Below, in pieces: positions 11,828 through 23,853 of a DNA stretch of 30,270 bases (positions are counted from its first letter, which is position 1; every line of letters begins with the position of its first letter). The notes beneath the pieces were generated by a model that saw nothing but the letters and a program-made list of their open reading frames with translations, did not search any database and was not told the DNA's origin. The stretch covers positions 1 to 30,270 of IMG/VR virus record IMGVR_UViG_3300025598_000117, one strand, 5' to 3'. Both the position numbers and the translations under genes were made by a program. Source of the DNA: a virus.

Positions 11828-11829
11828 AA

Positions 11830-12597: not shown

Positions 12598-12598
12598 T

Positions 12599-13780
12599 TT
12601 ATTTTAATTTATAATATAATTCTTCTCTTATCGATTTAAACAGTTCTTTAAATCCCGACTTCTCTCCCTTCATTAATTTAGAAAGGATAAGATCGCTATC
12701 GGATATTTTATCATATGGATGTGCTTTTCTATAGGCCGCTATATCATTAGCGAATTGCGACATAAAATTACCAGAACCTAATGCGCTGCTGACTGCTTCT
12801 TTCCATATTGACTTAAATTGATCTGTATCTGAAATACTATCATACGGTTGATTTTTAATATTGTTAAGATGGTCTGATACATCGTCGTAGAGATTAGAAG
12901 TATCGCCATCTCTATTTAGAAATAGTTTTGCTACTTTCTGCATAACCACGGGAGCTACTTTAAACAGTCTTGCAGAAATATCATCTTCAGATTTTAAAGG
13001 ATCTGCTCTTCTAAGCTTTTCTCTAGCATTTACTTTAGCTCGTTGTACGCTAGCACCTGCAGTTCCTAATTTTCTACTACGTCGTCCACTGAATCTTTCA
13101 GGTGGTAAAGAAGATAGATCAGGAGCATCTCTATCTTCTAATCTATATACTGTAATGTCATCTGGTTTAGTTCCACCTACGAATTTTTTAATCTCATCAG
13201 ATATATTAGGTCCAGCTTCTGGTTTTTCTTTATGCCCATATCTGCCGCCTCTAGTAGCTGTAAATTCGTGTATTTTGATGTCTGCCCCATCCTTAAGACT
13301 TGCGTACATAATGTAAACTAAATCTGGATCTCTAGAAGGATCATATGGTTTATAATCTACTATCACTCCTCTTCTATTTCGAACAGGAATTCGATGAGCT
13401 GTAGGATCATCTAATTTAGGTCTTAGATATTCCGTTTTTGGTTTAAAGGCGGCCCACCCATTCGGACCATGAAAGACTATAAAGTTATCATAATGTGTTT
13501 TAAAATCATATAATTGTAAATTAGTTACTTTAGGATGTTTCTCATGCTTATATGGAACTAGTCTAGCGCGATCACTAACCAATTGATCATCATGTAGGAA
13601 TTTAGCCAGTTTGGTTCCTTCGGGATCGCTACCAAATGTTTTTAACAAAGGGCTTGACTCAAACAACGCAGCTAATTCTTCATAAATTCCTGTCGCTTCG
13701 ATTGCTTCATCAAACATAGATTCAAATTCTAATAAATCCAGTTTATTTCTTAAATTTTTAATTAAGTTAATATCTGACAT
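12599..13780 (-). CDS. Large unknown protein, late-promoter type
   Basis: 393 residues from the ATG at 13780, which has AAAGG about 9 nt upstream; a GTG at 13792 has none. The protein is helical at both ends, with a basic Arg-rich stretch near 225-260 (R-R-S-R-K, R-A-K-V-N-A-R-E-K-L-R-R). Two similar segments near 310-375, Y-D-S-I-S-D-T-D and Y-D-K-I-S-D-S-D, point to an internal duplication of about 50 residues. It is preceded by a perfect T4 late octamer on its strand. I do not recognise the family; a head or internal virion protein fits the promoter. Confidence 0.65.
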   Translation of the reverse strand: MSDINLIKNLRNKLDLLEFESMFDEAIEATGIYEELAALFESSPLLKTFGSDPEGTKLAKFLHDDQLVSDRARLVPYKHEKHPKVTNLQLYDFKTHYDNFIVFHGPNGWAAFKPKTEYLRPKLDDPTAHRIPVRNRRGVIVDYKPYDPSRDPDLVYIMYASLKDGADIKIHEFTATRGGRYGHKEKPEAGPNISDEIKKFVGGTKPDDITVYRLEDRDAPDLSSLPPERFSGRRSRKLGTAGASVQRAKVNAREKLRRADPLKSEDDISARLFKVAPVVMQKVAKLFLNRDGDTSNLYDDVSDHLNNIKNQPYDSISDTDQFKSIWKEAVSSALGSGNFMSQFANDIAAYRKAHPYDKISDSDLILSKLMKGEKSGFKELFKSIREELYYKLK

Positions 13781-13809
13781 AAGAGACAACACCTTTATAT
13801 TCGTATAAC

Positions 13810-13817
13810 TATTTATA
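13810..13817 (-). promoter_or_regulatory. Perfect T4-type late promoter (TATAAATA)
   Basis: Exact octamer on the minus strand, 29 nt before the ATG at 13780, leaving a leader with an AAAGG ribosome binding site. It is back to back with the octamer of the FeoA-like gene. Confidence 0.65.
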
Positions 13818-13828
13818 ACTTTTTTAAA

Positions 13829-13836
13829 GAATAAAT
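13829..13836 (+). promoter_or_regulatory. Late-promoter-like octamer (AATAAATA)
   Basis: One mismatch from TATAAATA, 10 nt before the GTG at 13847. It would give a leader of only about 5 nt. Confidence 0.4.
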
Positions 13837-13846
13837 ATCCATATGA

Positions 13847-14080
13847 GTGTCCAACATGACATTAGCTAACGCTCCTTTCAATAAACGATTAGTTATATCT
13901 TCAGTGGAAAATTTACAGCTATCTGAAATAGGGTTTATTCCAGGAGCTATAGTTCGAATTATAGCAAAAGCTCCATTCAAAGGACCTATAGCGGTCCGCG
14001 TAGATTCGTCGACATTTGCTATTAGATTAGAAGAGGCTGCACAAGTAAACATTAACGATTGTGAAGATATCGCGACTTAG
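13847..14080 (+). CDS. FeoA-domain protein
   Basis: 77 residues (74 if the ATG at 13856 is used). The segment L-S-E-I-G-F-I-P-G-A-I-V-R-I-I-A-K-A-P-F-K-G-P-I (split here for reading) followed by V-R-V-D-S-S-T-F-A-I-R-L-E-E-A is the FeoA SH3-like fold pattern, in which cellular FeoA assists the ferrous iron transporter FeoB. A free FeoA-like protein in a phage may bind host FeoB or simply reuse the barrel. GTG at 13847 is chosen because the octamer upstream leaves it just inside the transcript; no clear ribosome binding site precedes either start. Confidence 0.65.
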   Translation: MSNMTLANAPFNKRLVISSVENLQLSEIGFIPGAIVRIIAKAPFKGPIAVRVDSSTFAIRLEEAAQVNINDCEDIAT

Positions 14081-14086
14081 ATATTC

Positions 14087-14094
14087 TATAAATA
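14087..14094 (+). promoter_or_regulatory. Perfect T4-type late promoter, leaderless geometry
   Basis: TATAAATA lies 4 nt before the ATG at 14099. With the T4 initiation distance the transcript starts at about the first base of the start codon. Confidence 0.65.
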
Positions 14095-14098
14095 TATC

Positions 14099-15010
14099 AT
14101 GCAGATTCAAGAATTACTAACAGCTACTCAAATATTTACAGAAGCAAAATCTCCTCGAGGAGATTGTTTTGAAGTAGCAGCAAAAAATACAATTGATAAC
14201 CCTAATTTAGTTTTAGTACATGCATTTGTATCGGGTCAAGGACCTTTAGAGGGCCGACGTTTCGAGCATGCGTGGAATGAAGATGGCGATATAGTAATAG
14301 ATAATAGCAATGGGCGTAAGATTAAAATTCCTAAGATCTTGTATTATACCATAGGTCGTATTGATACTGATAACCCTGAAGAATACAGAGTTTACAATAA
14401 AAAATCTGCAATAGAGCATATGTTAAGGACAGAACATTGGGGACCTTGGGAATTAAGAGGTAGCAGTGATCGTCCGGCTAGCTCGAAAAAACGTAAAAAA
14501 GATAAAGTTACAGAATCTGAAGTTCCTAAGCATCATCCAGCATGGAGTTGGATGAATCATATTAATCCTCAAATCAAACAGTCTCTAAGCCACGTTACTG
14601 AGGAAGACTATACTCGTTTTCTCAGTTTAAAAGACGGATTCAAACACAAAATAGATTGGCCTGACTCGTCCTTTGAAGAAAACAGAAAGGCCACACTATT
14701 CTTAATCAATTACTTTAAGATGTCTATAGATTGGGACGACAGCGGATATCTAGAAAATTATGAAACTAGTGCTACTTGGGCGTGGAAAGAGTACATATGG
14801 ATACTGCATCGTTCGCCAGAATTATCGATGTTTTCTGTAGGCGGAATGACTCCTTCAAAGAACCCAGGGTATGGCAGTCATATGACGCATAAAATCTGGG
14901 TCTGTACCAATAACGATCGATTGGCACGAATTGTTCTTGCCATGAGTAGAGATATTAATCATTCAGAGAAATTTTTTAAACTTATCCAAAAGTTCTGGCC
15001 AAAAAAATGA
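14099..15010 (+). CDS. Papain-like domain fused to DWDDSGY-family domain
   Basis: 303 residues. N-terminus M-Q-I-Q-E-L-L-T-A-T-Q-I-F-T-E-A is CTS-like. Domain 1 (about 20-130) shows G-D-C-F-E-V-A, F-E-H-A-W and I-V-I-D-N-S-N-G-R in the order Cys-His-Asp, as in papain-like or transglutaminase-like folds; the S-G-Q-G-P and G-P-W-E-L pieces recur in phage homologues I remember. A K/S-rich linker (about 125-142) leads to domain 2, which carries M-S-I-D-W-D-D-S-G-Y near 210, the shared motif of a family with five other members in this window. A packaged protease-type effector is inferred. Confidence 0.65.
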   Translation: MQIQELLTATQIFTEAKSPRGDCFEVAAKNTIDNPNLVLVHAFVSGQGPLEGRRFEHAWNEDGDIVIDNSNGRKIKIPKILYYTIGRIDTDNPEEYRVYNKKSAIEHMLRTEHWGPWELRGSSDRPASSKKRKKDKVTESEVPKHHPAWSWMNHINPQIKQSLSHVTEEDYTRFLSLKDGFKHKIDWPDSSFEENRKATLFLINYFKMSIDWDDSGYLENYETSATWAWKEYIWILHRSPELSMFSVGGMTPSKNPGYGSHMTHKIWVCTNNDRLARIVLAMSRDINHSEKFFKLIQKFWPKK

Positions 15011-15516
15011 AAATAAATCAATTAATCAACGAAGCACAGCTCTATGTAAAAGGAATACCTAACCACTTACTATCCAGCATAGAGCCGGATACTGTTCCTG
15101 AATTTGAATCCAAAATTCAAGAGTTTGCTCATAACAGTAATATGATCAGCTTTGCAGATCTATCATCTACTGAAATCGAATGCCTCGAGCTCATGTTGAG
15201 ATACTTTAAGATGACCGTGGATTGGGATAATGTGGGCGTGCTACATGATAGAATTAAACTGATAATCGACAGCGACGTTTGGTCTTTTTTAGATCTACAA
15301 TGGGTTACCTATGATTCGCAAATGGCCACTATCATGCTTTTAATAGGATCTACAAATGCTGTGGGCAATTATCCTCATAATACATCTCGAACTACGGCAG
15401 TTTTCATTAAGTTTAAACAACCCGATCTACGCGAGTTAGCTTACAATATTAAACGCAAAATGAATGACTATGAAGACTTTTGGGACTACATAAAAGAACT
15501 CCTTCATGACCATTGA
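15007..15516 (+). CDS. DWDDSGY-family protein (divergent member)
   Basis: 169 residues, starting in an ATGA overlap with the previous gene. M-K-I-N-Q-L-I-N-E-A matches the capsid-targeting pattern with I-x-E/A cleavage. Residues around 70-80 read Y-F-K-M-T-V-D-W-D-N-V-G-V, aligned with F-K-M-S-I-D-W-D-D-S-G-Y of its neighbour; the downstream part is helical and ends in D-Y-E-D-F-W-D-Y-I. No catalytic motif recognised. Confidence 0.7.
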   Translation: MKINQLINEAQLYVKGIPNHLLSSIEPDTVPEFESKIQEFAHNSNMISFADLSSTEIECLELMLRYFKMTVDWDNVGVLHDRIKLIIDSDVWSFLDLQWVTYDSQMATIMLLIGSTNAVGNYPHNTSRTTAVFIKFKQPDLRELAYNIKRKMNDYEDFWDYIKELLHDH

Positions 15517-15594
15517 TCGGTCTGCACTACAACTGCCTCTCTCGCGTAGCGTAGCGCAGAATTTTTCCCACCCATTAACTACCAACTTAACCCC

Positions 15595-15667
15595 GGTCTA
15601 TACTAACCCTAAAAATCTGCTGCGCAAATTTTTCCCACCATGGAGATCTTGACCCCAGGTGATTTTT
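15595..15667 (+). repeat. 73-bp direct repeat, copy 1 (contains a promoter -35)
   Basis: This copy shares GGTCTAT, CCTAAAAATCTGC, TGGAGATCT and GGTGATTTTT, in the same order and over the same total length, with 17005-17077. The two copies flank the block holding the three tiny paralogues and the kinase-like gene. Copy 1 carries TTGACC, the -35 box for the gene at 15684; copy 2 has CGGCCC there. Confidence 0.6.
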
Positions 15668-15677
15668 GCTGTATAAT
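15649..15677 (+). promoter_or_regulatory. Sigma70 promoter, leaderless geometry
   Basis: TTGACC (15649-15654), 17-bp spacer, TATAAT (15672-15677). The ATG at 15684 is exactly +7 from the -10 box. Confidence 0.7.
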
Positions 15678-15683
15678 AAAGAA

Positions 15684-15872
15684 ATGAAACCAGAACAAGT
15701 AATCTACGCACAACGCTCAGATGGCAGCATTATACCAGTAGATCCCGCACACAGCTATCTAGAAGATTGGGCTAATCATTATGATCTCAAGCTCTATCGC
15801 TTTGATAAGCAGAGTCTCGATCATACCCTATTCTTGCTCAAGTATAGGGACCAAATAGAAAGATTCGGCTAA
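15684..15872 (+). CDS. Tiny paralogue 1 of the HTLFLLKYSD family
   Basis: 62 residues. It ends L-D-H-T-L-F-L-L-K-Y-R-D-Q-I-E, the same tail as in the next two genes (E-H-T-F-F-L-L-K-N-S-D and E-H-T-L-F-L-L-R-Y-S-D) and, more weakly, the minus gene at 28616. The centre has a basic/aromatic segment K-L-Y-R-F-D. The start at 15684 is chosen because the promoter places +1 there; an upstream in-frame TTG at 15666 would lie upstream of the transcript. TAATG overlap joins it to the next gene. Function unknown. Confidence 0.7.
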   Translation: MKPEQVIYAQRSDGSIIPVDPAHSYLEDWANHYDLKLYRFDKQSLDHTLFLLKYRDQIERFG

Positions 15873-16054
15873 TGGCAGCTATACGTTATTTGGAAAACCC
15901 CTATACTGGACGCTATATACGGTTACTCGTCGATGACGGAGATTGGCTTTGGGAACGAGGGCTAGCTGGGTGCCATTTACATGTCTACGAAGAAAATTCA
16001 GCTGAACATACTTTTTTCTTACTGAAAAACAGTGATCGTATAGTAGAAGAATGA
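15872..16054 (+). CDS. Tiny paralogue 2 of the HTLFLLKYSD family
   Basis: 60 residues. R-Y-L-E-N-P-Y-T-G-R-Y near the start matches R-Y-L-E-D-V-K-T-G-L of the next protein, and A-E-H-T-F-F-L-L-K-N-S-D-R-I near the end matches the family tail. It overlaps both neighbours by 1 and 4 bases, so the trio is one coupled operon derived by tandem duplication. Confidence 0.7.
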   Translation: MAAIRYLENPYTGRYIRLLVDDGDWLWERGLAGCHLHVYEENSAEHTFFLLKNSDRIVEE

Positions 16055-16287
16055 CTAGAGTACGCTATCTAGAAGATGTTAAAACGGGCTTGATTACCCG
16101 TGTAAAGCATAATGAAATAGATCTCAAATGGATCAAACACTCTAAAACACTGACAGTTCATGAATTTGACGTAAACAGTGCAGAGCATACCTTGTTTCTA
16201 CTGCGCTACAGTGATCAATTGGGCACCAACGTATCAGAGATGCTGGAAAGAGTTATAATTACAGAATTGGATCCAAAATTACCCTGA
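16051..16287 (+). CDS. Tiny paralogue 3 of the HTLFLLKYSD family
   Basis: 78 residues, ATGA start. It has R-Y-L-E-D-V-K-T-G near residue 4-12, V-H-E-F-D-V-N-S-A-E-H-T-L-F-L-L-R-Y-S-D near 36-55, and an extra 20-residue C-terminal helix absent from its paralogues. It ends 9 bases into the convergent kinase-like gene. Small single-domain beta-alpha proteins are likely; nothing more can be said. Confidence 0.7.
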   Translation: MTRVRYLEDVKTGLITRVKHNEIDLKWIKHSKTLTVHEFDVNSAEHTLFLLRYSDQLGTNVSEMLERVIITELDPKLP

Positions 16288-16971
16288 ACCCACCACAGGG
16301 TCCGTAATGACCATTTGAGCTCCTACACTGGTGTATCTGATCATGAAATTACCACCATGTAGATCAAGACCTTGATTCAGCTTAGTGATTAACTGACAGG
16401 CCTGTATGAGTTTACGATCACGTATATTAGTATAATCACCCTGTTTAGCTGCTGCAGCGATTGATTTTATCATAATAGACCAAATGCCATACTCTCCACG
16501 AACTTTAGGAAAATCAGGTGGATCAACAAATATACGATTGACAAAGCTATTGAATGTGTCAGGATGTATGTGTGCTACAGCAGCATAGGCATCATGAAGT
16601 CTTTCCATAGTGTAGACAAAGCGTGTGCCTTCAGGCTTCTTAAAGCTGTCAGCTACATAGATTCTAGGTAGATAATGATTGCTGCTCATTAAAGGCTGTA
16701 TAGCACGCACATACTGATAATAGGCATTGTTCTTGGGATCGGTAAACTTTCGCTCAACTTTGACTACTAGTGCAGGATCCTGTGAGTGATCAAATACCAC
16801 AGATTCTAAACCATGCCCTATAGACTGCCCTATAGGCAACCCACCTATCCAACGCTTTTCCGCAGTATCAGTAGATCTAAATAGTTTCTGCAAGAAAGTG
16901 GGCTTGACAGTGGCAGGCTGCTGTGTCTGTATGAGATCACGATCTTCTAAGGCAAATTCTCTGTAGCGCAT
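16279..16971 (-). CDS. Protein-kinase-fold protein with CTS-like start
   Basis: 230 residues from the ATG at 16971. Kinase landmarks occur in order: G-H-G-L-E-S-V-V-F near 52-60 (glycine loop), A-L-V-V-K-V near 67-72 (VAIK Lys), M-E-R-L near 120 (hinge), G-L-D-L-H-G-G-N-F-M-I near 205-215 (catalytic H/D-x-x-x-x-N loop) and I-T-D-P near 223 (DFG equivalent). The protein stops soon after, so the C-lobe is short. The start M-R-Y-R-E-F-A-L-E-D resembles capsid-targeting peptides. A small phosphotransferase packaged with DNA, in the way T4 packages Alt, is an inference. A late-type octamer lies 10 nt upstream. Confidence 0.65.
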   Translation of the reverse strand: MRYREFALEDRDLIQTQQPATVKPTFLQKLFRSTDTAEKRWIGGLPIGQSIGHGLESVVFDHSQDPALVVKVERKFTDPKNNAYYQYVRAIQPLMSSNHYLPRIYVADSFKKPEGTRFVYTMERLHDAYAAVAHIHPDTFNSFVNRIFVDPPDFPKVRGEYGIWSIMIKSIAAAAKQGDYTNIRDRKLIQACQLITKLNQGLDLHGGNFMIRYTSVGAQMVITDPVVGSG

Positions 16972-16981
16972 AATAGTTGAG

Positions 16982-16989
16982 TATTTATT
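16982..16989 (-). promoter_or_regulatory. Late-promoter-like octamer (AATAAATA)
   Basis: Minus-strand octamer with one mismatch, 10 nt before the ATG at 16971; predicted leader about 5 nt. Confidence 0.45.
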
Positions 16990-17222
16990 AGTATGTTTGC
17001 CCAAGGTCTATGTGCACCCTAAAAATCTGCGCTGCAAAAAATAAAAGGTCTGGAGATCTCGGCCCCTGGTGATTTTTATCCCCCATGGTGAGGATTTTTG
17101 AGAACTTTTTGAGAACTTTTTGAGAACTTTGGGGGATTTTCGCTGTGCCAAAAATTTTAAAAAGCAACAACTATTTTTGTATGCCTCTCCCAGCCTAAGC
17201 CAAAAGAGTTCTGCAGTGCACC

Positions 17223-17244
17223 GGTGGGGTGCTATAGCCCCACC
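17223..17244 (+). repeat. G4-hairpin element 1
   Basis: GGTGGGG and CCCCACC pair over an 8-nt loop. It lies about 95 bp upstream of the promoter for the gene at 17412 and close to a CTGCAG, as do several other copies. Confidence 0.55.
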
Positions 17245-17338
17245 AGGCATGTGCGAACTACGTAGACACAGCAGTTGACAGGCCTAACGCTGTATGCTAG
17301 TGACTGTACAACATTACAAAAACTTAATAAAAAAACGC

Positions 17339-17389
17339 TTGCACTACTAGCGTAGTGTGTTAGCATTAGCAACGTAGCAATACTGCTAC
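17339..17389 (+). promoter_or_regulatory. Cassette promoter with 5'-terminal stem-loop
   Basis: TTGCAC (17339-17344), 16-bp spacer, TAGCAT (17361-17366). Predicted +1 is 17373; GTAGCA (17374-17379) and TGCTAC (17384-17389) form a stem-loop at the mRNA 5' end, followed by an ACACAC-rich single-stranded leader. An A-rich tract (ACTTAATAAAAAAA) lies upstream of -35 like an UP element. Confidence 0.6.
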
Positions 17390-17411
17390 ATAACACACAG
17401 CACACAACACT

Positions 17412-17762
17412 ATGCAAACGCAACAACAAACAGCAGCAACGCAACAAGCAGCAACGCAAACAAAGCGCAAGTATACCAAGCGCAAGCAGTTGCGTTTAGT
17501 AACTAGCGCTGCTACTACTGCACAAGCGCAAGCAGCAGCAACCGCTACTAACAGCAACGCAGCAACGCGCAACAGCGCATTGCACACACAGCGTATGCTT
17601 AACTTTGCTACAGCGCAAAACGCAACGCAAATTAACAAAGCATTGTATACTAGCAACGTGCGTTATTTGCAAGCCTGTATTGCACATAACACAGCAATGC
17701 AGCAGTTGCAAGCGCAAATTACTGCACACTTGCTTAAAGTAGCAGTGCACTTGCAGTACTAA
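17412..17762 (+). CDS. Ala/Thr/Gln-rich basic protein of extreme composition
   Basis: 116 residues with no Asp, Glu, Gly, Pro or Trp; rich in A, T, Q, N and with K-R-K-Y-T-K-R-K near 18-25. The coding DNA has no TC, no GA and no GG step and only three CC steps over 351 bases. A complete promoter, leader and a 12-bp terminator hairpin support a real gene, though no family is recognised. The protein should be strongly positive and helical, so DNA, RNA or membrane binding is possible. Minus-strand frames here are mirror artefacts of the low complexity. Confidence 0.6.
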   Translation: MQTQQQTAATQQAATQTKRKYTKRKQLRLVTSAATTAQAQAAATATNSNAATRNSALHTQRMLNFATAQNATQINKALYTSNVRYLQACIAHNTAMQQLQAQITAHLLKVAVHLQY

Positions 17763-17786
17763 GCAACAGCGCAGTTAAACATACAC

Positions 17787-17820
17787 AGCACACGCTACGC
17801 AAGTAGCGTGTGCTTTGTTT
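17787..17820 (+). terminator. Rho-independent terminator
   Basis: 12-bp perfect stem AGCACACGCTAC / GTAGCGTGTGCT with GCAA tetraloop, followed by TTGTTTTG, 24 nt after the stop of the preceding gene. Confidence 0.75.
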
Positions 17821-17822
17821 TG

Positions 17823-18167
17823 CCTGTAGCAAACTGACTGTAACAAACAGCAGCCTAACTAAGCGCAGCGCCTAGTGGGAGTATACTAAGCAGTATAAAC
17901 AGCTAGCGGACCTCTGCAGTATTTGGCGGGGTGCAAATCCCACTGGGCAAACGTGCGAAGTTTTTATGTATGTGCATATTAATCAGTAGATGTAATAACA
18001 CTACAAAATCCCACAGTGCTAGCATCGTGTCGAATCTAGCATAATTACACCTGTTGTATACGCAGTAGGTTTAAAAACTAATGTGTAGTTTAATAACCTG
18101 CGCATGCAGTCAGGGGTGCAACCCCACTAGGACTGCTTGCTGTGCACAAGCGCACAAATAAAAAAAG
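17823..18167 (+). other. Non-coding stretch with two structured G4 elements
   Basis: No supported gene. Element 2: GGGG at 17928-17931 with TCCC at 17938-17941, plus a competing pairing of AGTGGGA (about 17874-17880) with TCCCACT (17938-17944). Element 3: GCAGTC and GACTGC (18106-18111, 18131-18136) enclose GGGG-TGCAA-CCCC (18113-18125); just upstream AAACTA/TAGTTT and CGCAG/CTGCG pairs suggest a larger fold. The doubled pairing options look like a switchable RNA or a protein-bound DNA site. Confidence 0.45.
18113..18125 (+). repeat. G4-hairpin element 3 (GGGG-TGCAA-CCCC)
   Basis: Compact hairpin 43 bp upstream of the -35 box of the next cassette, within a longer stem GCAGTC/GACTGC. Confidence 0.55.
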
Positions 18168-18220
18168 TTGCACACACTAGCATTTTGTGTGTATACTAGC
18201 GCTGTAGCACAACGCGCTAC
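18168..18220 (+). promoter_or_regulatory. Cassette promoter with 5'-terminal stem-loop
   Basis: TTGCAC (18168-18173), 18-bp spacer, TATACT (18192-18197). The predicted +1, 18204, is the first base of GTAGC, which pairs with GCTAC (18216-18220). Confidence 0.6.
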
Positions 18221-18242
18221 GTAATACATAAAAGCACAGCAT

Positions 18243-18806
18243 ATGCAACAGCAACAACAGCACATAGCACAGCAAGTAACTGCGTTACTTGCAAACACTA
18301 GCGTAACTTTTGCTTGCGTACAGTACACAACGTCTGTAGCAACAGCAGCAGCACATAAGCACTTAAACATACAAAAGCACACAGTTGCTAACGTACAGTT
18401 GTTTAGCAACATTAACGCTGCTACAAGCGTGTTTGCTAACGCTGTTAAGCGTAGCGCACAGCAGCACACTAACGACCCAGCAGCAGTTGCTAACTTTACA
18501 GCACAGCAAAATTACTTTACGCACACCGACTGCTACAGCATTGTGCAGCATAAAAACAACAGTAATTTGTACTTGTATTGCATTTACAACAATGCGCGCA
18601 GTTACTACACAATTAACAATGTACGCGCCACTAAGCAGCAGGTAGCTGAATACTTAACTGCAAGCGCTGCAAAGCAATTACTTAACGCTAGCCGCGTAAC
18701 GCATAACCTAACGCATAACGTAACGCACAGCGTTGTAGTGCGTACTATTGCGCTGCACAACATTGAGCGCATTAAAGCCAAGCGTAAGCAGTTACAGTTT
18801 GCTTAA
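18243..18806 (+). CDS. Ala/Asn/Thr/Gln-rich protein of extreme composition
   Basis: 187 residues; rich in A, N, T, Q, H, V and nearly lacking Asp (2), Glu (2), Gly (0) and Trp (0). The region 95-140 (T-D-C-Y-S-I-V-Q-H-K, L-Y-C-I-Y-N-N-A-R-S-Y-Y-T-I) reads like a folded beta domain, and the end I-K-A-K-R-K-Q is basic, so this is a real protein rather than repeat DNA. Only about a dozen GA, TC, GG and CC steps occur in 564 bases. Promoter, 5' hairpin and terminator are all present. No family recognised. Confidence 0.65.
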   Translation: MQQQQQHIAQQVTALLANTSVTFACVQYTTSVATAAAHKHLNIQKHTVANVQLFSNINAATSVFANAVKRSAQQHTNDPAAVANFTAQQNYFTHTDCYSIVQHKNNSNLYLYCIYNNARSYYTINNVRATKQQVAEYLTASAAKQLLNASRVTHNLTHNVTHSVVVRTIALHNIERIKAKRKQLQFA

Positions 18807-18827
18807 GCGTTAAGCAAGCACACACAT

Positions 18828-18863
18828 AACGCACGCACTATTTGTTAGTGCGTGCGTTTTTTT
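18828..18863 (+). terminator. Rho-independent terminator
   Basis: AACGCACGCACTA pairs with TAGTGCGTGCGTT over a 5-nt loop and runs into a T tract, 21 nt after the stop at 18806. Confidence 0.8.
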
Positions 18864-18960
18864 ATGAGCGTTATTTGTGTGTGCGCTGCAGCACAGTATG
18901 GGGTACTAATAAATGCGCTGTCATTAACTAACAGCAAGCGAGTCCGCTGCAGTGTAGGGC

Positions 18961-18974
18961 GGGGTGCAAACCCC
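18961..18974 (+). repeat. G4-hairpin element 4 (GGGG-TGCAAA-CCCC)
   Basis: An outer stem CACAGT...ACTGTG surrounds it, similar in layout to element 2 (AGTCCGCTGCAGTGTAGGGC precedes it here; ACCTCTGCAGTATTTGGC there). Confidence 0.55.
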
Positions 18975-19048
18975 ACTGTGACACAAGAGAATGCAAACTT
19001 TGCGTACTAGAGCACAAAAATGTTTTTGTAATCCCCTTACTGCAGCAC

Positions 19049-19100
19049 TTGCAGTCTGCGCGTGTATGCTGTAATATTGCAGTTGTAGAACTACTGCTAC
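19049..19100 (+). promoter_or_regulatory. Promoter with weak 5' stem-loop
   Basis: TTGCAG (19049-19054), 17-bp spacer, TAATAT (19072-19077). Predicted +1 is 19084; GTAG (19085-19088) and CTAC (19097-19100) form a short stem, then GCACACAC as in the other cassettes. Confidence 0.5.
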
Positions 19101-19133
19101 GCACACACTTAACTTAGCACAGGACTTACAGCA

Positions 19134-19355
19134 ATGAGCATGCAAGCAGATTACACAGCGGACGTTACGCGCAACGTCTACGGACACAAGCATACTAGCG
19201 CAGCAGCACGCATTGACAGTTTGCTTATTGACGGCGCTACAGGCGCTGTGTTGGAGCAGGAACGTGCCAGCTGGCGCGATCATCTGCGGCATTTGCGCGA
19301 AGAACACGGACTGCAGATCGTTGTAACAGCAGCAGGGGTTTACATTATTGGCTAA
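19134..19355 (+). CDS. Small hypothetical protein
   Basis: 73 residues with ordinary composition (I-D-S-L-L-I-D-G-A-T-G-A-V-L-E, then R-D-H-L-R-H-L-R-E-E-H-G-L-Q-I-V-V-T). The C-terminal half looks like a helix-strand unit. AGGA lies 10-14 nt before the ATG. It shows the cassette leader but a milder base bias than the two genes upstream. No recognised domain. Confidence 0.6.
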   Translation: MSMQADYTADVTRNVYGHKHTSAAARIDSLLIDGATGAVLEQERASWRDHLRHLREEHGLQIVVTAAGVYIIG

Positions 19356-19393
19356 CGCTTAGGCCAGCGGCTGCAGCACAGCCCGTGTCTAGC

Positions 19394-19422
19394 AGTGGGG
19401 TTTACCTCTAGTAGACCCCACT
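19394..19422 (+). repeat. G4-hairpin variant with long loop
   Basis: AGTGGGGT (19394-19401) pairs perfectly with ACCCCACT (19415-19422); CAGCGG upstream and CCGCTG downstream can add an outer stem. It lies between the genes at 19134 and 19490. Confidence 0.55.
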
Positions 19423-19454
19423 GATTAACCGCTGAACCTCTTTGGAAAAAGTTG

Positions 19455-19483
19455 TTGACAGCAGCGCACACAGGTGTTAGCAT
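19455..19483 (+). promoter_or_regulatory. Sigma70 promoter, leaderless geometry
   Basis: TTGACA (19455-19460), 17-bp spacer, TAGCAT (19478-19483). The ATG at 19490 is exactly +7. An earlier ATG at 19484 would lie upstream of the transcript. Confidence 0.65.
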
Positions 19484-19489
19484 ATGTCT

Positions 19490-19600
19490 ATGTCCATTAA
19501 GTACATTTTGCCCTGGGCCTTTGCCATGTTGTTGCTATTGCTCGGGCACTTTACCGCTGCTATAGTGTTAGCAGCATTGACGCTACTACTGGCCTACTAG
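19490..19600 (+). CDS. 36-residue membrane protein
   Basis: Begins M-S-I-K-Y-I-L-P-W-A-F-A and consists almost entirely of one hydrophobic stretch (runs of L, A, V, I), ending L-L-L-A-Y. It could span the membrane once or form a tight hairpin. The promoter geometry selects the second ATG. A GGGCGGCC terminator follows 48 nt later. Size and hydrophobicity recall small phage proteins that target the host envelope, but no function can be assigned. Confidence 0.55.
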   Translation: MSIKYILPWAFAMLLLLLGHFTAAIVLAALTLLLAY

Positions 19601-19647
19601 TTTTCGTTGAGTGCTTTGTGTTGTGCTGCGGGCTAGACGCCCGCTTA

Positions 19648-19685
19648 GGGCGGCCCTGTCCTAGACGCTGGCCGCCCATTTTTTT
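19648..19685 (+). terminator. Rho-independent terminator
   Basis: GGGCGGCC (19648-19655) pairs with GGCCGCCC (19670-19677), then A and a run of T. A second stem GCGGGC/GCCCGC lies just upstream (19628-19644). Confidence 0.75.
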
Positions 19686-19689
19686 GACT

Positions 19690-20030
19690 CTAAATCCAAA
19701 AACCTAATAGCAAGTCTCAAAGTGCTCAGAGGGGTTGTCTCTGACAACTGATCAGAAGTTTTCCAAACCTGTTGTATCAGCCCCAAGGCCTTGCCAGCTG
19801 ACTTTGCTAAAACAATAGGTTGCTGATCGTTGACCCATGTTCTGTTTAACATTAGACAGCGGCTGTTCAACTAAATCAAAGACCTAATGATAAAAACAGA
19901 GCTGGTTAGTTCAAGTTCCAAAAGAACGGAGTCAATGGAGTCGCTAGGGGTTGCGCAGCTAAAGTCTAGCGAGAACAAGATCTAAGAATCATTGGATCAG
20001 AGTTCTGCAGCGGGGTAATAGGAGAGGAAA
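19690..20030. other. Gene-poor stretch, possibly structured
   Basis: No gene is supported. A minus-strand frame (19661-19870) lacks a good start and ribosome binding site. TCGCTAG and CTAGCGA (about 19940-19970) form a 7-bp inverted repeat, and CTGCAGCGGGGTAAT (about 20006-20020) is one of several copies of that motif in the window. A structured RNA or binding region is possible. Confidence 0.3.
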
Positions 20031-20032
20031 GG

Positions 20033-20057
20033 AAACAGCAGCCCCTAGCTGCTGTTT
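20033..20057 (-). terminator. Terminator of the small minus operon
   Basis: AAACAGCAG / CTGCTGTTT stem with a 7-nt loop; on the minus strand it runs into TTTCCTTTCC. It lies 19 nt beyond the stop at 20076. Confidence 0.55.
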
Positions 20058-20075
20058 CGATAAGTGCTTGTTAGT

Positions 20076-20219
20076 TTAATTCAAATAGTGCTTAACTATG
20101 TAGTAAAACGCTAAAGCAAGCCCGACAATACAAGCCAGTTCCACAAAGGCATCGAACGCGGCTTCCGCTTTTTTCGTTTTACGCTCATAGTATTCTTCAT
20201 TTTCGTAGTCATCATACAC
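20076..20219 (-). CDS. 47-residue single-span membrane protein (GTG start)
   Basis: Starts GTG with AAAGGA 8 nt upstream: Y-D-D-Y-E-N-E-E-Y-Y-E-R-K-T-K-K-A-E-A-A (acidic, then basic), followed by one hydrophobic helix A-F-V-E-L-A-C-I-V-G-L-A-L-A-F-Y-Y-I-V and K-H-Y-L-N. The overlapping ATG frame one base off gives a shorter basic peptide and is rejected. Twelve bases separate it from the upstream 28-residue gene, so both share one mRNA. Confidence 0.6.
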   Translation of the reverse strand: MYDDYENEEYYERKTKKAEAAFDAFVELACIVGLALAFYYIVKHYLN

Positions 20220-20231
20220 AGTTACAGTCCT

Positions 20232-20318
20232 TTACTTGCGTTTCTTTTTAGCGTATGCTGCGCGTGCTGCACTACGGCGTGATGCTGCTTTAACAGAATG
20301 ATTGCGTACTTTTGCCAT
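20232..20318 (-). CDS. 28-residue Lys/Arg-rich peptide
   Basis: Begins M-A-K-V-R-N-H-S-V-K and ends A-A-Y-A-K-K-K-R-K; 11 of 28 residues are Lys or Arg. AAGG precedes the ATG and the leader contains ACACACAAGG, the cassette leader. It resembles the 27-residue Arg-rich peptide encoded at 20771 on the other strand. Possible roles are nucleic-acid or ribosome binding; none is established. Confidence 0.5.
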   Translation of the reverse strand: MAKVRNHSVKAASRRSAARAAYAKKKRK

Positions 20319-20395
20319 ATGTTACCTTGTGTGTTGTTAAACATAACGTCGACTGTGTACTTATACGATCTTATTCTATCAGCGTCAACCTTTTT

Positions 20396-20539
20396 TTAGC
20401 GTGCTTCTCCCAGCAACGTAACGCGGCGTCCTGGGTAAGTGGCCTGTGCTTGACGAATAGCATCAGTGCTATAGTTGCCTTCCATAACAACGTCAAACCA
20501 AGTAGCACCGTTGAATACACGAATTCGATAGGCTCGCAT
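20396..20539 (-). CDS. 47-residue hypothetical protein
   Basis: Reads M-R-A-Y-R-I-R-V-F-N-G-A-T-W-F-D-V-V-M-E-G, then Y-S-T-D-A-I-R-Q-A-Q-A-T-Y-P-G-R-R-V-T-L-L. This strand-strand-helix-strand pattern is typical of a tiny folded phage protein. AAGGA lies 7 nt before the ATG and a good sigma70 promoter is present upstream. No family name known to me. Confidence 0.65.
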   Translation of the reverse strand: MRAYRIRVFNGATWFDVVMEGNYSTDAIRQAQATYPGRRVTLLGEAR

Positions 20540-20574
20540 AACAAGTATCCTTTAGGGTAAAGAGTTGCCCGCCA

Positions 20575-20602
20575 ATAATAGCAGACATAAATTAATTGTC
20601 AA
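20575..20602 (-). promoter_or_regulatory. Sigma70 promoter for the gene at 20539
   Basis: On the minus strand TTGACA, 16-bp spacer, TATTAT. Confidence 0.65.
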
Positions 20603-20637
20603 CCTTTTTCTTTTCTACAAATTTTTGCAAATTTAGG

Positions 20638-20738
20638 TTGAGTTTAAATATCGCTGTACATATACTAGACGGATGCATAGCAGCAAGGTATTTGCTTGTG
20701 TGTGTTACTAAGTGTGTTGTTGCCTTGTTGCTATGCAT
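20638..20738 (+). promoter_or_regulatory. Promoter with long 5'-terminal stem-loop
   Basis: TTGAGT (20638-20643), 17-bp spacer, TATACT (20661-20666). The predicted +1 is 20673, the first base of a 16-bp stem: ATGCATAGCAGCAAGG (20673-20688) with CCTTGTTGCTATGCAT (20723-20738), one G-T pair, and a 34-nt T/G-rich loop. Confidence 0.65.
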
Positions 20739-20770
20739 TTTACAATAACCTTTAACTCGGAGCAAGTGTT

Positions 20771-20854
20771 ATGTCTAGACCACGTGTAAAGGTAACTGCC
20801 CGCGCTCGAGCGCAACGTGCTGCTCGTTACCATCGTAGCCTACGCAGACGCTAA
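20771..20854 (+). CDS. 27-residue Arg-rich peptide
   Basis: M-S-R-P-R-V-K-V-T-A-R-A-R-A-Q then R-A-A-R-Y-H-R-S-L-R-R-R: ten Arg and one Lys. CGGAG lies 8 nt before the ATG, a promoter with 5' stem-loop precedes it and a strong terminator follows, so the unit is a complete monocistronic gene despite its size. It may bind RNA, DNA or an acidic host protein. Confidence 0.6.
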   Translation: MSRPRVKVTARARAQRAARYHRSLRRR

Positions 20855-20877
20855 CGGTGTAGTTAGTGCTGCTGAGC

Positions 20878-20910
20878 AAATAGCGCAGACAATGTCTGCG
20901 CTATTTTTTT
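20878..20910 (+). terminator. Rho-independent terminator
   Basis: 13-bp stem AAATAGCGCAGAC / GTCTGCGCTATTT with AAT loop and a T run. Confidence 0.85.
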
Positions 20911-20949
20911 GACTTGAACAAACGCATCATGGACTTAGCTGTCATCTGT

Positions 20950-20962
20950 GGGGTGCAACCCC
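20950..20962 (+). repeat. G4-hairpin element 5 (GGGG-TGCAA-CCCC)
   Basis: Located 58 bp upstream of the -35 box for the gene at 21094 and 40 bp after the previous terminator. Confidence 0.55.
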
Positions 20963-21020
20963 GGTGGCTGTAAGCGTTTACATGTGTGTAAAAAGTTAAC
21001 AAAACTTAATAAAACTATGC

Positions 21021-21074
21021 TTGTGTTATGTAAGCACATGCTATAGCATTAGCAGCGTAGCACTACTGCTACGC
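21021..21074 (+). promoter_or_regulatory. Cassette promoter with 5'-terminal stem-loop
   Basis: TTGTGT (21021-21026), 17-bp spacer, TAGCAT (21044-21049). Predicted +1 is 21056, inside the first base pair of GCGTAGCA (21055-21062) / TGCTACGC (21067-21074). The upstream tract TTAACAAAACTTAATAAAA is shared with the other cassettes. Confidence 0.65.
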
Positions 21075-21093
21075 ACACACAAAAGTAAACACA

Positions 21094-21402
21094 ATGCTTA
21101 CAGTTACAAAAGTTGAAAGTGACGACACTGGCGTTTGCACACAGTATGCGTGCAACTTTACTGCTGCTTGCGATGGCAGCAGCATTTGGGCTGACACAAC
21201 AGGGCGCAAAGTACAAGTTACTGCTATTAGCGTACATGAGTGTGAGGGCTACAAAAGCATATATGTAACGCACAATAGCGACTGGCAAATTTACACTGAC
21301 AATGGCTTTGCTGCTGCTATTAGCAACGTATTAGGCTACAACGTAGACTTTACGGAGCAGGGAATGCAAGAGGACAACTTTGCAAGTATGGAAGCAGCAT
21401 AA
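21094..21402 (+). CDS. 102-residue hypothetical protein, YC-free coding strand
   Basis: Reads like a small beta-rich protein (M-L-T-V-T-K-V-E-S-D, then R-K-V-Q-V-T-A-I-S-V-H-E and K-S-I-Y-V-T-H-N-S-D-W-Q-I-Y) with four Cys. The coding strand has no TC and no CC in 309 bases, while GA and GG occur where Asp, Glu and Gly need them. Full cassette promoter and leader. No recognised family. Confidence 0.65.
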   Translation: MLTVTKVESDDTGVCTQYACNFTAACDGSSIWADTTGRKVQVTAISVHECEGYKSIYVTHNSDWQIYTDNGFAAAISNVLGYNVDFTEQGMQEDNFASMEAA

Positions 21403-21406
21403 CAAT

Positions 21407-21440
21407 TTGCAAGCAGCGTGCACAGTGCTATACTGTGCAC
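21407..21440 (+). promoter_or_regulatory. Promoter with palindromic operator over -10
   Basis: TTGCAA (21407-21412), 16-bp spacer, TATACT (21429-21434). A 9-bp inverted repeat GTGCACAGT (21418-21426) / ACTGTGCAC (21432-21440) is centred on the -10 box, the classic place for a dimeric repressor. Confidence 0.6.
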
Positions 21441-21463
21441 GTTACACACACAGGAGCAGACCA

Positions 21464-21709
21464 GTGAGAACCAATGACATTAAGAAAGGTCAGCGTATCC
21501 AGCAGCGCAATGGCTGGTACGGGACTATGTTCGATAATCGTAAGGGCAATCTCCGTTGCGTTGAAGTCGAAGGTGCTTTTACAGAGATCGGCGACATTTA
21601 CGCACATGAGATCGCGCGTGCTCAGGACGCCAATGGGATCTGGCACCCGATCGAACTTACTGAGTCGCAGCTGAAGTTGCGAGCTCAATTGGCAGCAATG
21701 GGCTGGTAA
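21464..21709 (+). CDS. 81-residue hypothetical protein (GTG start)
   Basis: GTG at 21464 has AGGAG 7 nt upstream. The protein has R-T-N-D-I-K-K-G-Q-R-I-Q-Q-R-N-G-W-Y-G-T-M, then V-E-V-E-G-A-F-T-E-I-G-D-I-Y-A-H-E-I, an SH3-like beta pattern of a small phage protein, and a short C-terminal helix. Its promoter may be repressed by a factor binding the palindrome. Upstream residues of the longer open frame overlap the previous gene and the promoter and are not used. Confidence 0.65.
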   Translation: MRTNDIKKGQRIQQRNGWYGTMFDNRKGNLRCVEVEGAFTEIGDIYAHEIARAQDANGIWHPIELTESQLKLRAQLAAMGW

Positions 21710-21744
21710 AATAAAACGCAGTGCGCTGTTATTCAGTGCACTGC

Positions 21745-21765
21745 TGTGGGGTTTTGCACCCCACA
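21745..21765 (+). repeat. G4-hairpin variant (TGTGGGG/CCCCACA)
   Basis: 7-bp stem with a TTTTGCA loop, 36 nt after the stop of the preceding gene. A second inverted pair CAGTGCGCTG/CAGTGCACTG lies just upstream. Confidence 0.5.
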
Positions 21766-21851
21766 CTACAGCGAGAGGTTCTCCAGAAACCATAAGAATT
21801 CATAGATGATCTTCAGAAGATCTTTTTATATGATTTCGAGCTAGTCCGACC

Positions 21852-21865
21852 GGGGTGCAAACCCC
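21852..21865 (+). repeat. G4-hairpin element 6 (GGGG-TGCAAA-CCCC)
   Basis: 58 bp upstream of the -35 box of the gene at 21993; AGTCCG just before it matches the sequence in front of element 4. Confidence 0.55.
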
Positions 21866-21922
21866 ACACTGCAGAGATGGTGCAAACTGTTAACAGATTA
21901 ACAAAACTTAACAAAAAAACAC

Positions 21923-21971
21923 TTGCTCTGTGCTTATGTATATGTAAAATAGTGTTGTAGCAACGTGCTAC
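21923..21971 (+). promoter_or_regulatory. Cassette promoter with 5'-terminal stem-loop
   Basis: TTGCTC (21923-21928), 16-bp spacer, TAAAAT (21945-21950). The predicted +1, 21957, is the first base of GTAGCA, paired with TGCTAC (21966-21971). The A-rich upstream tract TTAACAAAACTTAACAAAA is present. Confidence 0.6.
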
Positions 21972-21992
21972 ACAACACACAAGAGATCACAC

Positions 21993-22298
21993 ATGATTAG
22001 CGAAATCGCAAAAGCCCTAATCGCACTCGCCAGTGAGATTAAGGAGCAGGCGGGTCCTGTCTCAATGATGTTCCACATTGCAGGAAGTCAGGGTGACTTT
22101 GAGACCGCGTTGTATATCTACAACGACAAGAGTCTCTTTAACGAAACCTACTTCACTGCAGAAGAGATTGAGAAGTTCAATCGCATCATGCCCGCTATTG
22201 CTGATGGACTTAGCAAGTTGCAAAAGTTCGACGAGCAAATTGCTGCATTAGATGCTGCTAAGTACCACTCAGCAGACTATCTCAACGCAGTTAACTAA
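21993..22298 (+). CDS. 101-residue mostly helical hypothetical protein
   Basis: Starts M-I-S-E-I-A-K-A-L-I-A-L-A-S-E-I-K-E and ends in a helical A-A-L-D-A-A-K segment; one internal strand A-L-Y-I-Y. Leader ACACACAAGAGATCACACATG with AAGAG as weak ribosome binding site. Normal codon use, in contrast to the other cassette genes, suggests the cassette signals and the coding sequences have different histories. Function unknown. Confidence 0.7.
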   Translation: MISEIAKALIALASEIKEQAGPVSMMFHIAGSQGDFETALYIYNDKSLFNETYFTAEEIEKFNRIMPAIADGLSKLQKFDEQIAALDAAKYHSADYLNAVN

Positions 22299-22320
22299 CA
22301 GATCACAGTCAAATAAACGA

Positions 22321-22352
22321 GCGCATAGTGGGCAACCACTATGCGCTTTTTT
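22321..22352 (+). terminator. Rho-independent terminator
   Basis: GCGCATAGTGG / CCACTATGCGC, GCAA tetraloop, six T. Confidence 0.85.
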
Positions 22353-22533
22353 GTGGCCGTTTTTTCCAAAAGTTCGCTCCCCTAGGTTTTGTGCTCGATC
22401 TCTAAAGCTAGATCGTTGGAGATAACCTTAGATAGCCTCGAGCCTCTAGCGGGGTTTCAAGGGCAGTACGGATGGGTTGCTGTAAATATTCTGTGTATGA
22501 ATAGATAACCTCACATGCCTCGGTGGGATAAGA

Positions 22534-22562
22534 TTGACAAGGTTAACATAATATACAATACT
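22534..22562 (+). promoter_or_regulatory. Possible promoter inside a longer frame
   Basis: TTGACA (22534-22539), 17-bp spacer, AATACT; or a TACAAT at a shorter 14-bp spacing. It supports the start at 22590 over the ATG at 22515. Confidence 0.4.
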
Positions 22563-22589
22563 GTTTCTTTAGCCCAAACAGGAACAGGT

Positions 22590-22724
22590 ATGAATCATTG
22601 GATAACGATTGTGCTGGTAATTGTCTTAGCGGTTTGGATTGCAAACCTAATTGCTCATGCTGACCAGCTGAGTAAGAATCCAACACTGATCAAAAAATAT
22701 CGTGAGGGAAAGTTTGACGAATAG
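22590..22724 (+). CDS. 44-residue single-span membrane protein
   Basis: M-N-H-W, then a hydrophobic segment I-T-I-V-L-V-I-V-L-A-V-W-I-A-N-L-I-A, then a charged tail ending K-Y-R-E-G-K-F-D-E. AGGA lies 7-10 nt before the ATG. An in-frame ATG at 22515 would add 25 residues but has no ribosome binding site and lies upstream of the predicted promoter. Its stop is directly followed by the promoter of the next gene. Confidence 0.6.
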   Translation: MNHWITIVLVIVLAVWIANLIAHADQLSKNPTLIKKYREGKFDE

Positions 22725-22725
22725 G

Positions 22726-22753
22726 TTGACAAGTTGGCTATTAGTCGTATACT
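22726..22753 (+). promoter_or_regulatory. Sigma70 promoter
   Basis: TTGACA, 16-bp spacer, TATACT; the leader TGAAG...CTTCA can form a small stem, then ACACACAGG before the ATG at 22790. Confidence 0.75.
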
Positions 22754-22789
22754 GAAGCTGTCGATACTTCACAACACACAGGTGTAACT

Positions 22790-23086
22790 ATGGCACGCGG
22801 TAACTTTAAAGCAGAATGCGCAACTTTAGACGAACAGTTTGTGGAACGCATGCGCAAGCCCATTCTTAAGGTTTGGGGTTTGGTCGGGCACGATGTGCTG
22901 CGAGATGCCGAAACTATGGGCGAGCGCATTGATAACGAATCCGCTATTGAGTGCTGCATTGATGCTGATCGTATTATTTACGAAGCACGCGATTCGCATG
23001 CGGCCGGGGCTTTAGACACGATACTGACCAACTACGGTTATCCACAAGTGCTCAAGTACCTTGCGCAACGTATTCGCTTAGTTTAA
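22790..23086 (+). CDS. 98-residue hypothetical protein
   Basis: Largely helical, mixed charge (C-A-T-L-D-E-Q-F-V-E-R-M-R-K-P, then D-A-E-T-M-G-E-R-I-D, then D-A-D-R-I-I-Y-E-A-R-D-S). Clear promoter with 16-bp spacing and ACACACAGG leader, and a hairpin terminator. It is the last plus-strand gene of the small-gene region. No family known to me. Confidence 0.7.
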   Translation: MARGNFKAECATLDEQFVERMRKPILKVWGLVGHDVLRDAETMGERIDNESAIECCIDADRIIYEARDSHAAGALDTILTNYGYPQVLKYLAQRIRLV

Positions 23087-23102
23087 ACTTTTAAGAATCC
23101 AG

Positions 23103-23133
23103 CTAGCGGGTGTGGGGGCACTCGCTAGTTTTT
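23103..23133 (+). terminator. Rho-independent terminator
   Basis: CTAGCG / CGCTAG with inner GTG / CAC pairs and five T. Confidence 0.65.
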
Positions 23134-23224
23134 CCCACTCTTTTCCATTCGATTTTTTTTCAAAGAACCTGAGCGAGATCTCTAGGGATCTGACTGGGGT
23201 TTTACAGGAGAAAAAACAGCGGGC

Positions 23225-23644
23225 CTAAGCCCGCTGCACCTGATAGGGCTGCTTCCAGTTCCCAACTTGGATACTGCAGTAATAGGCAGTGTCGAAGTAG
23301 TCAATTTCGCTGCGGGTATTATCATACCAACCTGCGGCCTTAAGAGCTTGATGCAGCGCTTCTAAGGCTTCACGAGCCACTCCGTCATAGTGTTCGTGGA
23401 TCCAGTAGACATTGACATCTTCATAGCCGCTAGTATTGGGCCGGAAACCATGCAGCTGATAACGCTGATTGCGAGCACAGACTTCATTACTGTTGCCGAT
23501 AAAGTCAATAGGACCGCTGGTCAACTTGAGACGGATTGTGCTGTGGTTGCCCACACTAAGCGTGCCCTTAAGTCCATAACGCTTGAGTACAGGCTTAACT
23601 GCTGCTGCAATCACTGCCTTGCGCTCTTGATTCATATAAGCCAT
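23225..23644 (-). CDS. Widespread conserved phage protein (MAYMNQERKA type)
   Basis: 139 residues from the ATG at 23644, which has AAGGAG 6 nt upstream. The pattern M-A-Y-M-N-Q-E-R-K-A, then V-x-N-H-S-T-I-R-L-K-L-x-S-G-P-I-D-F-I, then V-Y-W-I-x-E-H-Y-x-G-x-A, then D-Y-F-D-T-A-Y-Y-x-x-I-Q-V-G-x-W-x-x-P-Y is a conserved hypothetical seen in many phages and mobile elements, as I remember it. It has a single-domain alpha/beta look; function unknown. Confidence 0.8.
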   Translation of the reverse strand: MAYMNQERKAVIAAAVKPVLKRYGLKGTLSVGNHSTIRLKLTSGPIDFIGNSNEVCARNQRYQLHGFRPNTSGYEDVNVYWIHEHYDGVAREALEALHQALKAAGWYDNTRSEIDYFDTAYYCSIQVGNWKQPYQVQRA

Positions 23645-23675
23645 TGTCTGCTCCTTGTTGCTAACCAACTGCAGT

Positions 23676-23843: not shown

Positions 23844-23853
23844 AAGCCTTTGT

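Follow-up and report, generated by a model that had tools for sequence, protein, structure and literature searches.

Near-absolute exclusion of TC and CC from the message strand of an early-gene cluster in giant phages and its possible origin in mRNA integrity

In a large family of uncultivated giant phages, a small gene cluster excludes the dinucleotides TC and CC (together YC) from its message strand; purifying selection, and not mutation, almost certainly maintains this exclusion and probably acts on the RNA. The sequence analyzed here (the window) comes from one such phage and is 30,270 bases long (IMG/VR record IMGVR_UViG_3300025598_000117); in it, a block at 17300-18860 lacks nearly all YC and, in addition, nearly all GA and GG (together GR). 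We give about even weight, for and against, to the reading that this block belongs to a cluster of early genes with mRNAs kept free of YC by selection for mRNA integrity.

Judged by its helicase (~50% identity over 84%) and its phrog_1250 protein (44%), the nearest named relatives of the window are the PA5oct-like jumbo phages (Arenbergviridae), with only 44-51% protein identity. The GC content along the window steps from ~0.33 in 1-17000 to ~0.45 in 17000-30270 (0.44 in the block itself), and the step lies near the block, as if the replication part of the genome met the early-gene part there. Adjoining the block, the gene at 16279-17004 (minus strand) matches phrog_15752 (E 3e-10), the family of the T7 gp0.7-type protein kinase, an inhibitor of transcription in the host that also acts on RNases III and E, and its homologue also flanks the block in the related locus L005. 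Just left of the block, at 17095-17130, stand three tandem copies of TTTTTGAGAAC. In L005, a gene for a protein that resembles GIY-YIG by eye (8431-8733, minus strand) lies directly left of the YC-free block, and a gene family resembling it is found ~1.9 kb upstream of the FTEQGMQ gene (described below) in 17 depleted loci. The features of the window are as follows, with promoters and terminators read from the letters.

17300-17822, plus strand: first YC/GR-free transcription unit, with promoter and leader, gene 17412-17762 and terminator hairpin
17361-17389, plus strand: leader repeat TAGCATTAGCAACGTAGCAATACTGCTAC with the hairpin GTAGC...GCTAC (direct repeat family D3)
17412-17762, plus strand: gene of a 116-aa protein without D, E, G, P or W
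17783-17818, plus strand: terminator-like hairpin ACACAGCACACGCTAC/GTAGCGTGTGCTTTGT without YC or GR (inverted repeat I16)
17823-18131, no strand: spacer from terminator to next promoter, holding most YC/GR exceptions of the block, mainly in GC-rich GGGGTGCAAATCCC-type hairpins
18132-18866, plus strand: second YC/GR-free transcription unit
18168-18173 and 18192-18197, plus strand: promoter-like TTGCAC and TATACT upstream of gene 18243
18243-18806, plus strand: gene of a 187-aa protein with homologues in loci L005-L009
18831-18863, plus strand: hairpin and T-run at the end of the second unit
19134-19355, plus strand: 73-aa gene, partly depleted (YC 5 against 11.4 by synonymous draws)
20961-21461, plus strand: 500 nt without message-strand YC, containing the FTEQGMQ gene
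21094-21402, plus strand: gene of a 102-aa FTEQGMQ-family protein, common to the YC-free loci

The leader repeat recurs at 19072-19100 and 21044-21072, and TTGCAC ~20 nt upstream of the copy at 17361-17389 could serve as a -35 box. GC-rich GGGGTGCAAACCCC-type hairpins, in which many GG and CC exceptions sit, recur between the transcription units at 17911-17945 and 18944-18978 (the two copies of repeat D8), 21747-21773 and 21850-21876 (repeats D4, D8).

An earlier note on this DNA had described the depletion of GA, TC, GG and CC in the block from its letters alone, and the depletion is real and survives both shuffling and synonymous-codon controls. The block contains 59 of the four steps (GA 12, GG 15, TC 9, CC 23), while 2,000 mononucleotide shuffles gave 343.6±13.3 with a minimum of 304, and the odds ratios are 0.12 for GA, 0.25 for GG, 0.11 for TC and 0.24 for CC, with GC at 2.46 and CA at 1.55. 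The counts noted for gene 17412-17762 are exact (TC 0, GA 0, GG 0, CC 3), and the "about a dozen" steps given for gene 18243-18806 are 13 (GA 4, GG 1, TC 1, CC 7). As for the flanking non-coding DNA, said to share the depletion, this holds up to the edges of the transcription units and fails beyond them, where the spacer at 17823-18131 gathers most exceptions. The first unit has 3 YC against 62 expected and, with the YC exclusion already allowed for, GA 1 against 25 and GG 0 against 13, and a run without any GR extends from 17302 to 17836; the second unit has 8 YC against 87, GA 4 against 33 and GG 1 against 19, corrected likewise.

The earlier note had proposed correction for amino-acid content as a refuting test, and the depletion persists when synonymous codons are redrawn gene by gene from the usage of this phage (2,000 draws). 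Gene 17412 has 3 YC where the draws give 20.7±4.1 and no GR where they give 14.1±2.9, gene 18243 has 8 YC against 32.9±4.8 and 5 GR against 19.0±3.2, and two control genes of the window showed no YC depletion in the same redraw. In gene 21094-21402 the depletion noted for the coding strand only was also borne out, with TC 0 and CC 0 while GA 15 and GG 16 are kept (by synonymous draws, YC 0 against 14.2±3.2 and GR 31 against 36.6±2.7). What had looked like an oddity of this gene is, however, the general case, since depletion on one strand proved to be the rule among relatives. The partly depleted 73-aa gene at 19134 has an orthologue in L005 (11834-12055) from which YC is absent.

The product of gene 21094 is the window member of a family defined by the C-terminal motif FTEQGMQ[DE]. 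An alignment-based search with the FTEQGMQ gene found 142 matching places in IMG/VR, all of them metagenomic, of which 80 were kept. Among 60 distinct loci, 37 were taken as depleted by an anchor-gene ratio below 0.12, 10 were intermediate and 13 exceeded a ratio of 0.5, in some cases because a wrong open frame had been picked. Across the 37 depleted domains (30.5 kb in total), 45 YC were observed against 2,246 expected (0.02), an effect far exceeding the uncertainty of such approximate base-composition expectations, and 24 domains have no YC at all. Where C is allowed only after a purine, purines necessarily precede A, G and T less often, so the expectation for GA and GG was fitted under this constraint; GA then stands at 0.97 and GG at 0.89 of expectation in the 37 loci, which means that the other strand is essentially untouched. 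The general rule is thus the exclusion of TC and CC on the message strand only. The earlier suggestion that a site containing YC or GR is under selection accordingly stands for YC on the message strand, which is universal, whereas the GR part is an addition of the window's lineage.

The exclusion can be followed in large contigs. In the marine relative G006, coded on the minus strand, 2,078 nt pass without one YC on the message strand, and this run covers a six-gene cluster together with its spacers and promoters, while YC is abundant on either side. The longest YC-free run is 922 nt in G039 (353 kb, 467 ORFs), followed by one of 160 nt, and 1,272 nt in G042 (148 kb), followed by one of 156 nt, so each of these two genome contigs has a single YC-free locus; G040 (210 kb) has one main locus with a run of 840 nt, and the next, of 215 nt, adjoins it. 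In the tree of FTEQGMQ proteins, most of one large clade is depleted and partly relaxed members are scattered within it, a pattern that fits an agent met by some lineages only. The PA5oct-like phages are the nearest named relatives, yet the FTEQGMQ gene was not found in them and the 50 kb examined held no YC-free domain. The terminal repeat of PA5oct (NC_071039, 27301-28100), which is not an FTEQGMQ locus, is moderately low in YC and GR, with a combined ratio of 0.36-0.5 over 400 nt.

The FTEQGMQ protein is modeled by AlphaFold with a pLDDT of 95; the model had no match in the PDB and matched one viral model, M1HTR4. No relative was found among 50,697 records of named phages, and the cellular relatives come down to one phage-like contig in a Porticoccaceae MAG, which is not depleted. 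Among Pfam and PHROG families, none matched the products of the YC-free cluster convincingly. The cluster genes are preceded by consensus-like TTGACA/TATAAT promoters and by GGAG ribosome sites, and the cluster would therefore consist of small early genes with strong host-type promoters, "early" being judged from the type of promoter. In L174 (3234-3310), and likewise in L176 and L213, the spacers are compact and the -35 box of the following promoter is enclosed by an inverted repeat (CACTACACAGC...GCTGTGTAGTG, for example), so that a single element may both close one gene and open the one after it.

The exclusion follows the part of the message that is needed for translation. Spacers hold 3.9 YC per kb within the domains and 73 outside them. 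Going upstream from the first gene, YC per kb rises in 25-nt steps through 10, 24, 29, 59 and 74 (background ~74), and after the last stop codon it is 32 and then 75, a profile that is indicative, since the algorithm setting the domain edges favors YC-free sequence. The exclusion hence starts around the promoter, with an edge less sharp than the downstream one, and ends ~25 nt past the last stop codon, the background being regained within 25-50 nt; somewhat upstream of the likely transcription start there is still depletion (24-29 per kb against 52-71 at other early promoters). The three codon phases are alike, with YC at 0.02, 0.00 and 0.02 in the L005-type block, which shows that codon usage is not at work, and UC (0.016) and CC (0.026) are excluded equally, without effect of further context. 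Codon or amino-acid usage as the cause is ruled out by this equality of phases and by the synonymous redraws, ribosome-dependent A-site RNases by the phase independence, and low-complexity protein sequence rich in Q, A, T and N by the ordinary acidic proteins elsewhere that share the YC exclusion. The cytosines of the exceptional YC are slightly more often paired than other cytosines (0.69 against 0.61), which lends at most weak support to an enzyme acting on single strands.

The way in which YC is avoided points to selection. In Thr and Ala codons, the share of C at the silent third base drops from 0.25 outside the domains to 0.01 inside while A rises from 0.32 to 0.57, and T, which a deaminase would raise, goes from 0.32 to 0.28; the excess of YC to YT changes that the earlier note expected among relatives is absent, silent C being replaced by A. 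In Ile codons ATT stands in place of ATC, so the substitute is simply a codon that is allowed. Before codons beginning with C, the preceding base inside the domains is A in 0.52, G in 0.47, C in 0.001 and T in 0.007 of cases (~0.25 each outside), which indicates that the C stays and the neighboring pyrimidine changes. Pairwise between relatives, substitutions involving C make up 967 of 1,522 after a purine and 5 of 864 after a pyrimidine, counts from pairs that are not independent. C has not been lost from the block (0.247 against 0.19 in the whole window), and between the window and L005 the share of four-fold sites that differ is 0.15-0.29 in the depleted genes and 0.48-0.77 in the flanking ones. 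The cost in amino acids is heavy: proline makes up 0.1% of residues inside and 4.0% outside, and the ratio of TCN to AGY serine codons is 2:346 inside and 1958:2022 outside.

In addition to the general rule, the second strand is also excluded in genes 17412 and 18243 and their relatives in L005-L008, where GA and GG stand at 0.00-0.24 even after the YC correction. This further exclusion is confined to two genes of the window's lineage and is not part of the general rule. The L005 orthologue of gene 17412 has zero TC, CC, GA and GG, and in L005 and L006 neither YC nor GR occurs across 915 nt of two genes, for which composition predicts ~97 of each. The gene 18243 protein (best-segment identity 92% with L005 and L006, 67% with L007 and 73% with L008) has homologues in L005-L008 that are depleted as in the window, while the homologue in L009, with 46-49% identity, shows no depletion and serves as a control. 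The D, E, G and P residues of the L009 protein are replaced throughout in the L005 protein, mostly by N, Q, T, S, K, A, R and H. The structure model of the gene 18243 protein is of low confidence (pLDDT 63). In L009, which belongs to an unrelated phage, the homologue is a lone opposite-strand gene (9992-10501) with capsid-like genes on one side and portal-like genes on the other, a placement that suggests a mobile gene.

A two-base rule on the message strand, which holds in coding and non-coding sequence and ends after the stop codon, is as expected for a message that must survive some agent at every single YC, and we think it probable that selection acts on RNA rather than on DNA. Something that destroys or blocks RNA at YC would be active while the cluster mRNAs are made and translated, and the simplest such agent would be a single-strand endoribonuclease with Y-C dinucleotide specificity. 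As expected for avoidance of an RNase, the exclusion is restricted to the message strand (except in genes 17412 and 18243), independent of phase, present in transcribed non-coding RNA and limited to what translation needs of the message. That an RNase, of whatever origin, is the agent seems to us an evenly balanced proposition. Since only this operon is protected, its products would be needed before the agent acts or against it: they might neutralize or outlast the enzyme, with the remaining genes expressed afterwards. The tiny, strongly promoted early genes, the one conserved member and the free occurrence of YC in almost all other genes together suggest an antidote operon, a role that its context makes conceivable but which we hold with less than even confidence. 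Against an RNase, no YC-specific enzyme was found in host or phage, and setting the gene content of depleted phages beside that of undepleted ones pointed to no candidate. YC is present in adjacent early genes whose promoters are similar, which means that the agent would not be equally effective on every early message; the depletion also reaches somewhat upstream of the likely transcription start, and a YC-specific RNase does not account for the GR exclusion in genes 17412 and 18243. The complete scenario, in which giant phages make a poison-proof antidote from YC-free mRNAs while a widespread bacterial Y-C RNase is active, is speculative, and we lean against it as a whole.

Within RNase avoidance, we slightly favor an RNase of the host, a defence enzyme or toxin set free by infection, over a host-shutoff RNase encoded by the phage, to which the operon would be immune because it is expressed during the action of the enzyme. 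The phage enzyme would suit a pattern that follows one phage clade over many environments and is kept in most lineages; however, hundreds of other genes in the same phages retain YC, the scattered relaxation within the clade would mean that the enzyme had been lost several times, and no candidate for it turned up in the shared gene content. We therefore regard this sub-case as unlikely.

The main rival to RNase avoidance is escape from the termination factor Rho, where messages lacking YC would not load Rho, so that transcription would run on through them even if their translation were poor. In its primary RNA-binding site Rho prefers 5'-YC dimers in single-stranded RNA (PMC9160355), which matches the excluded class exactly, and Rho would likewise act in a manner specific to the message strand, blind to phase and equal for UC and CC; being widespread in bacteria, it would also account for the breadth of the pattern. 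The base content inside the 37 loci (C 0.18, G 0.26) is in line with avoidance of Rho (rut) sites. Rut sites, however, share only the YC-dimer preference with the phage rule, for they need several spaced YC in a C-rich, G-poor stretch and a single YC should be tolerated, while here single YC are excluded despite the amino-acid cost, to none at all in most domains, and C over G is allowed in gene 17412 (C 0.27, G 0.20). Moreover, translation shields genes from Rho, and yet the exclusion stops where translation stops; neighboring early genes would be left unprotected, and the GA and GG exclusion would be left unaccounted for. On balance, escape from Rho is quite improbable.

A DNA-level attack or constraint at the locus, such as a nuclease, a recognition site (e.g., a YC-type CRISPR PAM) or a single-stranded DNA state, would explain the exclusion on both strands of genes 17412 and 18243 and of their relatives in L005-L008, and why depletion reaches slightly upstream of the promoter. 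A site in double-stranded DNA does not fit the strand asymmetry of the 37 loci or the end of the exclusion at the stop codon, and 1 kb without sites would not protect a genome of more than 200 kb; this explanation is very unlikely, and PAM avoidance is unlikely in view of that asymmetry and of how little of the genome would be protected. A mutational origin, through a cytosine deaminase that prefers YC (one of two readings in the earlier note) or through UV-type damage at dipyrimidines, is hardly credible: YC is a shared target of APOBEC-type deaminases and UV mutagenesis, and the strand hit would be the non-template one, which is exposed, but the silent replacements, the codon junctions, the retained C content and the low four-fold divergence all stand against it.

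That a single operon, in genomes of 150-350 kb, is almost completely rid of one dinucleotide class is an unexpected trace of very strong selection, and no previous account of such an exclusion in bacteria or their viruses was found. If immunity to an RNase is the cause, the sequence of the operon would directly disclose the specificity of an as yet undiscovered defence enzyme active in infection and, for the lineage of the window, that of a second enzyme acting at G-purine; the operon would also mark the countering genes of many giant phages known only from uncultivated material, and message-strand dinucleotide exclusion in early genes would then be a simple computational signature of bacterial arms races at the RNA level. 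If Rho is the cause, the operon would escape termination by passive means and would put the YC rule to a strong test in vivo.

Known systems resemble the proposed one in part. Among HEPN RNases, Csx1 of the S. islandicus type III CRISPR system cuts C-C strongly and U-C weakly (PMC6754442), and Cas13 enzymes each prefer one dinucleotide, AU, UC, AC or GA (PMC9312194); they show a dinucleotide preference as proposed for the agent here, but the equal exclusion of UC and CC matches neither exactly, and no such system has been linked to these phages. The T4 protein TifA, a small early phage product of tifA that stops the infection-activated RNase toxin ToxN (PMC10853763), is like the suggested antidote in role, with no sequence relation shown. 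In single protein production, ACA-less transcripts are translated in E. coli expressing MazF (PMC5408214), so that messages without the RNase site are likewise translated during RNase activity; that system is man-made, with a three-base site and a known enzyme, whereas the phage operon is natural, its site has two bases and its RNase is putative. Finally, human cytomegalovirus suppresses CpG in its immediate-early 1 gene and thereby evades ZAP, an RNA-binding factor (reviewed in PMC7756014), and there, too, a large DNA virus drops one dinucleotide from an immediate-early RNA and escapes the factor that recognizes it. Unlike cytomegalovirus, the viruses studied here are bacteriophages, the dinucleotide is YC, and its exclusion is near-absolute and restricted to the message strand of one small operon.
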